This document shows positions 44,909-47,982 of a stretch of 64,000 nt of DNA, in pieces (position 1 is the first letter of the stretch; every line of letters starts with the position of its first letter). Below the pieces are notes generated by a model. The model saw only the letters and a program-made list of their open reading frames with translations, made no database searches and was not told the origin of the DNA. The DNA is from an uncultured Draconibacterium sp. (GTDB lineage: Bacteria > Bacteroidota > Bacteroidia > Bacteroidales > Prolixibacteraceae): positions 1,730,501 to 1,794,500 of the forward strand of contig NZ_OY781884.1 in assembly GCF_963677155.1 (NCBI RefSeq). The letters are read 5' to 3'. Made by a program: the position numbers and the translations under genes.

Positions 44909-45574
44909 TTATGCAAGCAGATTGCCCAGGTTCGCAAACTTATTGTTGTAATCTTCAACCGAAAGTTTGACAATTTCCAGTGCTTCTTCCTGCCCGTAAG
45001 TAGCGGCAATTTCAGTATTCGAATCAACACCTGGCATATCCTTATACGTAAGGAAGTAATGCTCCAAACGCTGGATTACAATTTCAGGAACCTGCGATAC
45101 ATCGGTAAAATGACCATAAACTGTATCGTTATCCAAAACAGCAATTATTTTATCATCGGCCTGGTCGCCGTCAATCATACGGAAACCTCCAATCGGACGC
45201 GCTGTTACCAGCAAATCGCCATGTGCCAGATCTTTTTCCGTTAATACACAAATATCAATCGGGTCACCATCTCCTTTTATACCTTTTCGGTTCACCTTCT
45301 CCGAACAGTATTCGCCTACTTTGTTGCCACAATAGGTTTGCGGAATAAACCCGTATAACGCAGGAACAACATTCGAGAATTTCTGCGGGCGATCAATACG
45401 CAAATAACCGCTATCTTTATCAATTTCGTATTTTACCGTATCGGTTGAAACCACTTCGATAAAAGCGGTTAATTCTTCGGGAGCATTTTCGCCAATTGCG
45501 ACGCCATGCCAGGGGTGCGATTTATAACGCAATCCCATCAATCGTCCAATGGGATCGGAAAGTCTGTCTACCAT
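44909..45574 (-). CDS. ppa: Inorganic pyrophosphatase (family I)
   Basis: Ppa hydrolyses pyrophosphate and pulls biosynthetic reactions forward. The 221-residue protein carries the family I signature DGDPIDICVL with three metal-binding Asp residues, the YGFIPQTYCG substrate region and GDQADDKIIAV. It is slightly longer than E. coli Ppa (175). The ATG at 45574 gives MVDRLSDPIGRLMG. It is monocistronic and faces the 21-bp repeat array. Confidence 0.95.
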   Translation of the reverse strand: MVDRLSDPIGRLMGLRYKSHPWHGVAIGENAPEELTAFIEVVSTDTVKYEIDKDSGYLRIDRPQKFSNVVPALYGFIPQTYCGNKVGEYCSEKVNRKGIKGDGDPIDICVLTEKDLAHGDLLVTARPIGGFRMIDGDQADDKIIAVLDNDTVYGHFTDVSQVPEIVIQRLEHYFLTYKDMPGVDSNTEIAATYGQEEALEIVKLSVEDYNNKFANLGNLLA

Positions 45575-45658: not shown

Positions 45659-45799
45659 TTAAGCCACAACAGAAGAAACAGTTCCAAACGACGGAACACT
45701 TAATAACAAACAAAGCCTGTAAGTGCATAAACCAATGCGGCCTGCCAGTTTATGACAAATGCTCAGCAGAACGAGTAACAAAAGAACAGACTTCTTCAT
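45659..45799 (-). CDS. Possible 46-residue secreted peptide
   Basis: A minus-strand open frame of 47 codons encodes a peptide starting MKKSVLLLLVLLSI, a good signal-peptide-like helix, then CHKLAGRIGLCTYRLC with three Cys. A -33/-7 pair matching the phylum consensus lies 34-60 bases upstream. The gene lies in the non-coding region between ppa and comM. No family is recognised; it may be a real small gene or a decayed one. Confidence 0.35.
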   Translation of the reverse strand: MKKSVLLLLVLLSICHKLAGRIGLCTYRLCLLLSVPSFGTVSSVVA

Positions 45800-45971: not shown

Positions 45972-46235
45972 CAACCTTGGTTGATTGCCGATCAACTACG
46001 GTTGTTTTATTTCCAACCTTGGTTGGTTTACTATCAACTTTAGTTGATTCTCAATCATCTATAGTTGATAGCCTATTAACCTTGGTTAATTTCTTATCAA
46101 CCGTGGTTGGATCACCATCATCTTTGGTTGGTTATTTATCAACCGTGGTTGGATTACCATCAACCTTGGTTGTTTGTCTATCAACCAAGGTTGGCAATGT
46201 ATCAACTATGGTTGAATCAAAAACAGAAAGGGTTG
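45972..46235. repeat. 21-bp tandem array of a 12-bp palindrome
   Basis: Twelve units with a core close to CAACCnnGGTTG begin at 45972, 45993, 46014, 46035, 46056, 46077, 46098, 46119, 46140, 46161, 46182 and 46203, that is, exactly every 21 bp; a degraded 13th (CAGAAAGGGTTG) is at 46224. The 9-bp spacers vary, apart from a frequent AT just before the core. The 21-bp step is two helical turns, so a dimeric protein would bind one face. An open frame through it gives heptads like LSTLVGL, which I take as a side effect. It lies between ppa and the comM-like gene. Confidence 0.9.
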
Positions 46236-46368
46236 ATTTAAAACAGGATTTGTTTAATACAGTTAATCGCAACTCTCTCATCTTCCGGAGTTATTGTATA
46301 AGCAGCTATTCTTGTCCTCCGCTGGCGCGATTTTAGAAATCACTCCCCAGCCGACAATGCCGAAAAGC

Positions 46369-46402
46369 CAGACCTTCAAGGTTTCGCAACCTTGAAGGTC
46401 TG
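46369..46402. repeat. Perfect 15-bp hairpin
   Basis: CAGACCTTCAAGGTT pairs perfectly with its complement around a TCGC loop. There is no T-run, so it is not a normal terminator; it looks like a dispersed palindromic repeat. Confidence 0.7.
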
Positions 46403-46443
46403 ATAAGCGAACAGAACCAAAGTGAGACCATCACCTGAGTAGA

Positions 46444-47982
46444 TTATCCGCCCCAATTCTCACGATCCAAACTACGGTAATGAATAGCTTCCGAAAGGTG
46501 ATCGGCCTGCACATGCTCTTCACCTTCAAGGTCGGCTATTGTGCGCGAAACTTTTAAAATTCTATCGTAGGCACGGGCAGATAAGCCAAGGCGGTCCATA
46601 GCATTTTTAATCAGGTTGTTACTGTCCTCATCCAGCACCACGTATTCGCGTATCAGTTTCGAGGTCATTTGTGCATTGGCGTAAACACCCTGATGATTCT
46701 CAAAACGTTTCTCCTGAATTTTTCGGGCAGCTAACACCCGCTCGCGAACAGCCTCACTATTTTCCGACGACTCCATTTCCGACAGCTTTTTGAATGGTAC
46801 GGGAACAACTTCCAGGTGAATATCAATGCGGTCGAGCAGCGGCCCCGAGATTTTATTCAGGTATTTCTGCACCACGCCCGGCGCACAAACACACTCTTTT
46901 GTGGGATGATTGTAATAACCACACGGACACGGATTCATGGAAGCCACCAGCATAAAACTTGCCGGGTATTCTACCGAAAACTTAGCCCGCGAAATGGTAA
47001 TATTCCGGTCTTCCAAGGGTTGGCGCATCACTTCTAAAACAGTTCGTTTAAATTCGGGTAGCTCATCCAGAAACAAAACTCCATTATGAGCAAGGCTAAT
47101 TTCCCCTGGCTGTGGATAATTTCCGCCGCCAACCAAAGCGACGTCCGAAATTGTGTGGTGGGGACTTCGGAAAGGACGCCTTGTCATCAACGAAGTTTCT
47201 TTATCGATTTTACCGACTACCGAATGAATTTTTGTGGTTTCCAGCGCCTCTTTTAACGAAAACGGAGGAAGTACTGTCGGAATTCGTTTGGCTAACATCG
47301 TCTTTCCCGATCCCGGAGGACCTACCAAAATTATATTGTGACTTCCGGCAGCTGCAATTTCCAAAGCCCGTTTTACATTTTCCTGTCCTTTTACATCCGA
47401 GAAGTCGAGCGGATTAGTATTGACCTGCGTATAAAACTCAGCACGGGTATCGATTACGGTTTGTTCAAGACTTCCTTCATCATTCAAAAAGTCGATGACT
47501 TCTGTAATATTTTCGGCACCATAAACTTTCAATCGGTCAACAACAGCAGCTTCGCGTGCATTTTGTTTGGGCAGAATAAAACCTTCAAATTCCTCTTTAC
47601 GCGCATTAATAGCAATGGGTAAAACGCCTTTAATGGGCTGCAACGTTCCGTCGAGCGAGAGCTCCCCCATTAAAACATACTTTGCTAATTTATCGTGATT
47701 AATCTGCCCCGATGCGGCCAAGACAGCGGTAGCCAACGGCAAATCGTAAGCCGATCCTTCTTTACGAATATCGGCCGGAGCCATGTTAATAATGATTTTC
47801 TTTTTAGGCCATTTGTAGCCGTTTAGGCGCAGGGCCGATTCAATTCGTTGTTGACTTTCTTTCACTGCACTATCGGGCAAACCAACCAGCAAGAATTTAA
47901 TTCCGGTGGTTACGTCAACTTCAATGGTAATGGTTGTGGCATCAATTCCGAAAACTGCGCTTCCGAAGGTTTTAACTAACAT
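46444..47982 (-). CDS. YifB/ComM-family Mg-chelatase-like AAA+ ATPase
   Basis: A 512-residue AAA+ protein of the ComM/YifB type; ComM promotes branch migration during natural transformation. The N-terminal domain (VGLPDSAVKESQQRIESAL) precedes the ATPase with Walker A GPPGSGKTMLAKR, Walker B VLFLDELPEF and the cysteine-bearing loop NPCPCGYYNHPTKECVC; the C-terminal domain contains RAYDRILKVSRTIADL. The family is widespread in Bacteroidota, where its exact role is not tested as far as I know. Confidence 0.94.
   Translation of the reverse strand: MLVKTFGSAVFGIDATTITIEVDVTTGIKFLLVGLPDSAVKESQQRIESALRLNGYKWPKKKIIINMAPADIRKEGSAYDLPLATAVLAASGQINHDKLAKYVLMGELSLDGTLQPIKGVLPIAINARKEEFEGFILPKQNAREAAVVDRLKVYGAENITEVIDFLNDEGSLEQTVIDTRAEFYTQVNTNPLDFSDVKGQENVKRALEIAAAGSHNIILVGPPGSGKTMLAKRIPTVLPPFSLKEALETTKIHSVVGKIDKETSLMTRRPFRSPHHTISDVALVGGGNYPQPGEISLAHNGVLFLDELPEFKRTVLEVMRQPLEDRNITISRAKFSVEYPASFMLVASMNPCPCGYYNHPTKECVCAPGVVQKYLNKISGPLLDRIDIHLEVVPVPFKKLSEMESSENSEAVRERVLAARKIQEKRFENHQGVYANAQMTSKLIREYVVLDEDSNNLIKNAMDRLGLSARAYDRILKVSRTIADLEGEEHVQADHLSEAIHYRSLDRENWGG

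Follow-up and report, generated by a model that had tools for sequence, protein, structure and literature searches.

A palindrome array with a 21-bp step in an uncultured Draconibacterium is one of a large array family and perhaps the orphan part of a chromosomal gene-plus-array module

What keeps a short palindrome repeated at one exact spacing in a gap between two genes, and does such an array stand alone in its chromosome? The question arises from a locus in the window, by which we mean the whole 64-kb stretch of DNA analysed, from an uncultured Draconibacterium. The first-pass annotation of this DNA had described twelve intact units and one degraded unit at 21-bp intervals, without a phase slip, between a ppa and a comM-like gene; rescoring of the window gives the same units and step, and the neighbours are as claimed. 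Many other arrays with a 21-bp step, built on different palindromes, form a large family with it; they usually have a gene of their own and often a structured leader. With a probability of about 0.55, we propose that the window array is an orphan copy of the DNA component of a chromosomal module that the Bacteroidales have in several copies, acting as a cooperative protein-binding platform on one face of the DNA. The features discussed are collected in Table 1.

Table 1. Features of the window and of related loci; positions without prefix are those of the window, and G000 is the genome of the window.
Feature	Position	Strand	Remark
ppa-like gene	44909-45574	-	name presumed from the sequence
46-aa ORF	45659-45799	-	signal-peptide-like start; perhaps the secreted peptide of the first-pass annotation
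Array of 13 units, 12-bp palindrome CAACYnnRGTTG plus 9-bp spacer	45972-46235	-	strand is the gene-strand orientation, from comparison with gene-linked arrays L011 and L031
Degraded gene-proximal end unit	46224-46235	-	one half-site left (CAACC-CTTTCTG on the minus strand)
Probable relic, 3' end of a gene of about 106 aa	46273-46317	-	15 residues, 60% identical, two stops
Perfect 15-bp inverted repeat with 4-base loop	46369-46402		CAGACCTTCAAGGTT-TCGC-AACCTTGAAGGTCTG; lies between relic and comM; occurs once in the window
comM-like gene	46444-47982	-	name presumed from the sequence
Second CAACC array	G000:C1:1839291 (L011 5292-5534)		linked to a 106-aa gene
Third small-gene copy	G000:C1:537770-538075		in-frame TGA; no array seen by eye
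IS3-like element and shortened GCCCC array	G000:C1:1523000-1530500 (L127)		cls locus; element recognised by eye
CAACC-like units in a 105-bp higher-order repeat	L025 5029-5502 (G007:C7)		five 21-bp units per repeat; recently amplified look

The step is constant over all 13 unit starts (45972, 45993 ... 46224), with zero slips. Scored as matches at the ten specified positions of CAACYnnRGTTG, the units reach 10, 10, 10, 10, 9, 8, 10, 9, 10, 10, 10, 10 and 7, that is, 12 good units and one degraded unit (CAGAAAGGGTTG). At step 21, the highest sum that twelve units reach anywhere in the window is 116 of 120; it lies at 45972, and the maximum falls to 59 when the array is excised. A motif-free count of complementary pairs within units at the same step gave 55 of 60 at 45972 against 31 at the best place elsewhere; for ten units in the array region, step 21 gives 46 of 50 pairs, and none of the other steps from 15 to 29 gives more than 27. 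The sequence CAACCnnGGTTG, with up to one mismatch, has nine matches in the window, eight of them inside the array, a number reached in none of 100 shuffles (mean 1.6).

The first-pass annotation had proposed a motif search of the whole genome and its relatives, and this search located a second CAACC array in the same genome, about 60 bp past the stop of a 106-aa gene (MAYLKEAQKRDFV...). Gene and array are flanked by genes that we take, from their sequences, to be galE- and rfbB-like. The order galE, small gene, array, rfbB is repeated in a relative, G007; a histidine-kinase-like gene separates galE from the small gene in G010, and a similar gene adjoins the small gene in G002. The degraded end unit of the window array is found in identical form at the opening of the gene-linked arrays of its own genome (L031) and of G007 (L033), and the corresponding unit of G002 (L032) is CAACC-TATTCTG.

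The 106-aa family is present in 21 of 37 genomes of the genus and 32 of 140 of the family; among 393 genomes of the order it occurs in four, the window's own included, and among 395 of the phylum in that one only. A scan of genome contigs gave 13 loci, whose titles name Prolixibacteraceae, Draconibacterium, Maribellus, Sunxiuqinia, Mariniphaga and unclassified Bacteroidetes or Bacteroidota. Plasmids and phages, queried with one 118-aa member, gave no match, and viral contigs no confirmed relative; likewise, no family match above cut-off was obtained in Pfam, NCBIfam and PHROG scans of one to four members each, and four of four module proteins had no match to the PADLOC models at E 0.01. The HNH gene beside the module at L034 does have a PADLOC match. 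The pI computed for five proteins (four of 106 to 118 aa, one of 117 aa) is acidic, 5.2 to 6.1, and the small protein is probably helical. The third copy of the small gene in the window's genome adjoins a gene whose product starts MAR(K)KNNRKKK, as in G010.

The linkage between gene and array extends well beyond the CAACC type. In the 600 bp downstream of the gene, the best repeat lag was 21 (score at least 0.42) at 35 of 41 loci, compared with four of 41 upstream and five of 209 control windows; with this loose threshold, a few weak cases are included in the 35. The family and order genomes gave 61 gene places, of which 44 were examined, the other 17 having no fetched locus, being fragments or being cut by a contig end. 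Three of the 44 (L094, L096 and L097) were dropped since the script did not re-find the gene, and L094 and L096 still show repeats of 22 and 21 bp. The six failures are L037, where lags 20 and 21 tie at 0.52, L053, L055, L059, L060 and L091. A terminator-like hairpin lies within 130 bp past the stop at 29 of 39 gene loci in a permissive scan whose match at L045 lies inside the array itself.

The 21-bp step is common to the arrays, and the half-sites differ by class: CAACC, GCCCC, TACCC, TTACC, GTACC, TATCC, TGTCC, TGACC and ATCCCC, with TTCC/TGCC and GGCA as looser types. Over 28 loci, with half-site labels assigned by hand, half-sites diverge in step with the proteins (Mantel r between the two distances 0.54; 0 of 5000 permutations), although even proteins as much as 77% identical can adjoin different half-sites. 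By eye, the downstream 21-bp array of a distant relative (L096, G245) appears to consist of two inverted arms. Gene-linked arrays often border variable genes, among them an HNH endonuclease (in some cases with a DUF3427 helicase), a PLD-like protein and a Schlafen-type helicase, and others border polysaccharide genes (L034, L038, L039, L046, L064, L066, L068, L071, L072 and L073, some being the same place twice); the module may mark the edges of variable islands.

A leader of three hairpins was found upstream of the gene at 17 of 41 loci, and some others have only the last hairpin; none was seen in the CAACC class. The 17 leaders fold with a mean z of -3.0 and their reverse strands with -3.1. 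In an alignment of 12 of them, paired according to a structure written by hand and with the second hairpin misaligned in some rows, 87.1% of cells pair compared with 83.0% in shuffles, and seven of 24 pairs change on both sides compared with 2.7, neither value being reached in 500 shuffles; a count of further pair types, one of five measures, was no better than shuffles (390 of 500). RNAalifold returned only five pairs from leader alignment A5 because loops and the second hairpin misalign. Rfam gave no match at the gathering score for 12 loci and, at E 1, four matches for five leader loci, all below that score. A model built on the leader (R1) has matches in 33 of 140 genomes of the family, not all of which have a 106-aa gene. 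Among 14 of its loci away from such genes, 11 have a protein of about 247 aa behind the leader and three do not. A 20- to 21-bp array lies downstream of all 11 of these 247-aa genes and upstream of one; the arrays mostly form two inverted arms of CCTG/CAGG-like sites, the arrangement also seen at L096. A box, GCTGAAAGGCTTGTG (up to three changes), occurs within 700 nt downstream of the gene at 12 of 41 106-aa loci, the one at L037 probably being a chance match, compared with one of 41 upstream, and downstream at three of 11 247-aa loci; the background is three in 128 kb of the window, eight in 263 kb of orphan-array loci and one in 26 PQLLE loci.

The 247-aa protein matches NCBIfam family NF052641 (PQLLE) at 24.4 bits (E 1.9e-5), below the curated cut-off of 80, and four proteins of the 106-aa family have no match to it listed at E 1. 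PQLLE itself, an internal duplication (E 3.6e-14), was found in 43 of 120 relatives, 29 above cut-off. Thirty PQLLE loci were fetched and 27 used, in one of which the gene was not found; in the remaining 26, a repeat of 20 to 22 bp (score at least 0.45) is the best lag upstream at 24 and downstream at three. PQLLE genes are like the module in adjoining arrays of 20 to 22 bp, and unlike the 106-aa module in that the arrays lie upstream and, in twelve that were inspected, are largely direct single half-sites such as TAAGGA, GTAGGA and TTAGGA. Profile comparison did not relate the 106-aa family to PQLLE or to the 247-aa family, and between the latter two gave a weak match (E 0.0042). A common ancestry of the three is unsupported for the 106-aa family and weak for the other two. 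No paper with the PQLLE name was found in the open-licence PMC literature.

The first-pass annotation had taken the preserved palindromes and differing spacers to point to a selected binding site and not to recent copying, with all sites on one DNA face as in iteron, centromere-like or operator arrays. Comparison of orthologous arrays bears this out. Half-sites change more slowly than spacers in eight of eight sets, by 1.5 to 4.7 fold. Changes at half-sites against spacers are 144/963 vs 298/806 in the cls set, 13/340 vs 50/279 in cinA-argE, 27/317 vs 48/270 in ligA, 79/332 vs 119/279 in cob, 41/774 vs 114/648 in the gene-linked GCCCC set, 35/370 vs 45/306 in TACCC and 147/741 vs 327/621 in CAACC; the pair G034/G013 (1/130 vs 2/108) has counts too small to weigh. 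Nine single pairs, which are not independent of one another, show the same direction without exception (Fisher p 2.4e-5 to 0.032). Repeat alignment could create part of this contrast, although the flanks anchor the unit order. In six sets the two central bases are faster than the spacer, and in two (cinA-argE and CAACC) they are slightly slower; the 84-bp flanks, partly coding, are slower than the half-sites in two of the eight (cob, 61/334; ligA, 34/500). In several sets the units correspond one to one between species. The arrays have the form of iterons and centromere-like arrays: tandem sites in helical phase, conserved while the spacers drift.

What is conserved appears to be read as two equal halves. 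In 23 arrays, with end units left out, the two halves of a unit are complementary in 723 of 1060 cells, and shuffling the right halves within each array gives a mean of 738 (sd 8.8); neighbouring units across a spacer give about 706. This permutation test finds no covariation between the halves of a unit or between neighbours. Each half of a unit keeps on its own to a consensus common to the whole array, which is what two equal protein half-sites, and not base pairing, would lead one to expect. GCCCC arrays also contain units with one half-site swapped for GAAAA/TTTTC, at similar places near the ends across loci.

Arrays also occur apart from the small gene. Two-unit matches to the CAACC pattern were found in four of 61 genomes, all within the genus (four of 37). 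The same four carry a CAACC-type gene; for G010 this label comes from array and locus, as protein identity there is only about 49%. All four also contain one or more orphan arrays. By exact patterns, GCCCC arrays are present in at least nine of 37 genomes and KTACC arrays in at least six. The rule that an array occurs only where its own gene is holds for CAACC (four of four) and fails elsewhere: three of the nine GCCCC genomes (G007, G010 and G030) have no GCCCC-type gene, GTACC arrays are present in G030 and G008, neither of which has a full gene of that type (a fragment is left in G008), and a TTACC-like array is present in G004, where the 106-aa gene is missing. In arrays without a gene of their type, half-sites are again slower than spacers (changes at 3/110 against 17/112 positions between G030 and G010; p 0.0016). 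Orphans occupy orthologous places at loci whose neighbours we presume from their sequences to be cls (six species), cinA-argE (three), ligA (three) and cob (three); gaps are convergent at cls, divergent at ligA, cinA-argE and the presumed murB locus, and co-directional at cob. Two ORFs of the IS3-like element that adjoins the shortened GCCCC array of the cls locus recur directly behind a GCCCC-type small gene (L053).

The window array is itself such an orphan, and its small gene has probably decayed. On the minus strand comM is followed by the relic and then by the array, which opens with the half-degraded unit; this order of gene and array is that of the intact gene-linked copy. The relic is called on DNA alignment and not on tblastn, where its match (E 8.9) is not significant alone: the region 46236-46443 aligns locally with L011 at a score of 25.5, and none of 300 shuffles reached this value (best 20.5). 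At E 0.5, tblastn gave no match to a small-gene relic beside orphan arrays, and the window relic too lies below that cut-off. Among 30 ppa loci examined, over up to 1500 bp, a comM tail upstream of ppa occurs in G000 alone, so the place of the window array is young or rearranged. The first-pass annotation was upheld on binding-site selection and one-face form; it missed the wider family, the array's own gene and the leader RNA, for which other genomes were needed.

The module, as observed at its many loci, is made up, in order, of a structured leader RNA (in many of the classes), a small acidic protein, usually a terminator-like hairpin, and about 270 bp of half-sites at the 21-bp step. In the mechanism that we propose, a sequence-specific protein would recognise each 12-bp palindrome through a pair of identical subunits, and about 12 dimers would bind cooperatively along the DNA as a single nucleoprotein patch, on one face since the units are two helical turns apart. 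The most likely candidate for the binder is the protein of the module itself, alone or in a complex, and the specificity of the binder would shift from class to class, so that several modules could share a cell without cross-talk. By analogy with plasmid stability arrays, the patch would most likely be an anchoring or organising site rather than a simple operator. The main weakness of the binding reading is the putative binder, together with arrays that persist without the usual gene. More tentatively, and a little short of an even chance, the structured RNA, the small helical protein and the two-turn array may constitute one self-specific, previously undescribed class of RNA-protein-DNA module, in which the half-site code diversifies by class and the 21-bp geometry is frozen, giving several non-interfering versions per cell and orphan docking sites acted on in trans.

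These observations also bear on other explanations. An ordinary minisatellite or a translated heptad repeat might be suspected, 21 bp being seven codons and one plus-strand frame of the window array being open, and the first-pass annotation had allowed for both should relatives show equally conserved spacers or a conserved heptad protein. We regard this as scarcely tenable, and the array results refute it: faster spacers and one-to-one units, with no whole-unit homogenisation, rule out the minisatellite, and no reading frame is open throughout all 27 arrays, which rules out a coding array. Hairpins or a terminator transcribed from the array as a structural RNA are very improbable, even though the units are self-complementary and neighbours can pair across many spacers (GGTTGAT-n5-ATCAACC in L011). 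The permutation test of unit halves rules out base-paired hairpins, terminator-like hairpins often part the array from the gene transcript, and the 12 loci compared with Rfam had no match at gathering score.

If instead the sites were operators that repress or activate their neighbours, the module would be a set of small regulons. Several orphans do lie in divergent gaps and PQLLE arrays do lie upstream of their gene, but 106-aa and 247-aa arrays lie downstream, the former usually behind the terminator-like hairpin, orphans are found in convergent and co-directional gaps as well, and by eye their neighbours have no evident common function; we consider this quite unlikely. Nor do we think it likely that the arrays are a selfish or domesticated dispersed repeat of the REPIN-RAYT kind, in which the gene-linked array is the master and is copied to new intergenic sites by the protein, perhaps together with the leader RNA, the orphans being offspring. 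Same-class orphans at other loci of the same genomes, GCCCC arrays with similar unit types near their ends at different loci, the relic beside the window array and the patchy presence of the gene in the genus are what such copying would leave. Against it, copies are few (at least about one to four places per class and genome in exact-pattern searches), orphans are kept at orthologous places in several species, their half-sites too are the slowest-changing part, and neither a match to a transposase family, in the members scanned, nor a clean empty site was found.

The reading as a protein-binding platform, if the module's protein does read the array, would turn these loci into a naturally occurring set of proteins paired with their sites, in which specificity has switched repeatedly, and into a chromosome element of a new kind. 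From class to class the letters change along with an adjacent protein and often a structured RNA, both without a known family, and the geometry of one unit per two turns, repeated about 10 to 13 times, stays the same; all of this lies within one order and mostly one family. The module is open to direct tests in cultivated strains. The gene-plus-array module has seemingly been undescribed so far: in line with the first-pass annotation, which knew of no Bacteroidota element of this form, the open-licence PMC literature yielded no description of array or module, and one outside that limited set is possible.

Among known systems, the palindromic coding repeats termed PARCEL, in the part of their description drawn on here, are tandem DNA repeats with dyad symmetry, as our arrays are, with units of 25 residues (PMC2996958). 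Those repeats, as so described, are coding, and the arrays step by 21 bp and share no open frame, which rules out membership. A REPIN is a hairpin pair, not a long in-phase array, and the partner in REPIN-RAYT systems is a HUH/Y1 transposase (TnpA-REP). In the portions of the reports used here, these systems combine palindromic intergenic repeats with a cognate gene (PMC3116915, PMC8049555, PMC8266576). The module resembles them in having a cognate gene and dispersed extragenic copies of the same class, and differs in its long in-phase array, few copies, halves that do not covary and a protein that, in the members scanned, matches no Pfam, NCBIfam or PHROG family above cut-off, HUH/Y1 transposases included. 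Plasmid partition also uses arrays, in ParR-parC and TubR-tubC. A plasmid stability array is provided by StbA and the stbDRs of R388, as far as the part of that report used here describes them (PMC3098194). Unlike the plasmid arrays, the module is chromosomal (the window lies on a 5.27-Mb single contig, not on a plasmid or phage), occurs several times per genome with its gene upstream or downstream of the array, has palindromic 21-bp units and a structured leader RNA, adjoins no motor gene by eye, and encodes a protein unrelated by family search. Like them, it sets a small protein gene beside tandem short sites in phase, with half-sites specific to each class as expected for systems without cross-talk. 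The module is a member of no family tested, and it would work like plasmid stability arrays.
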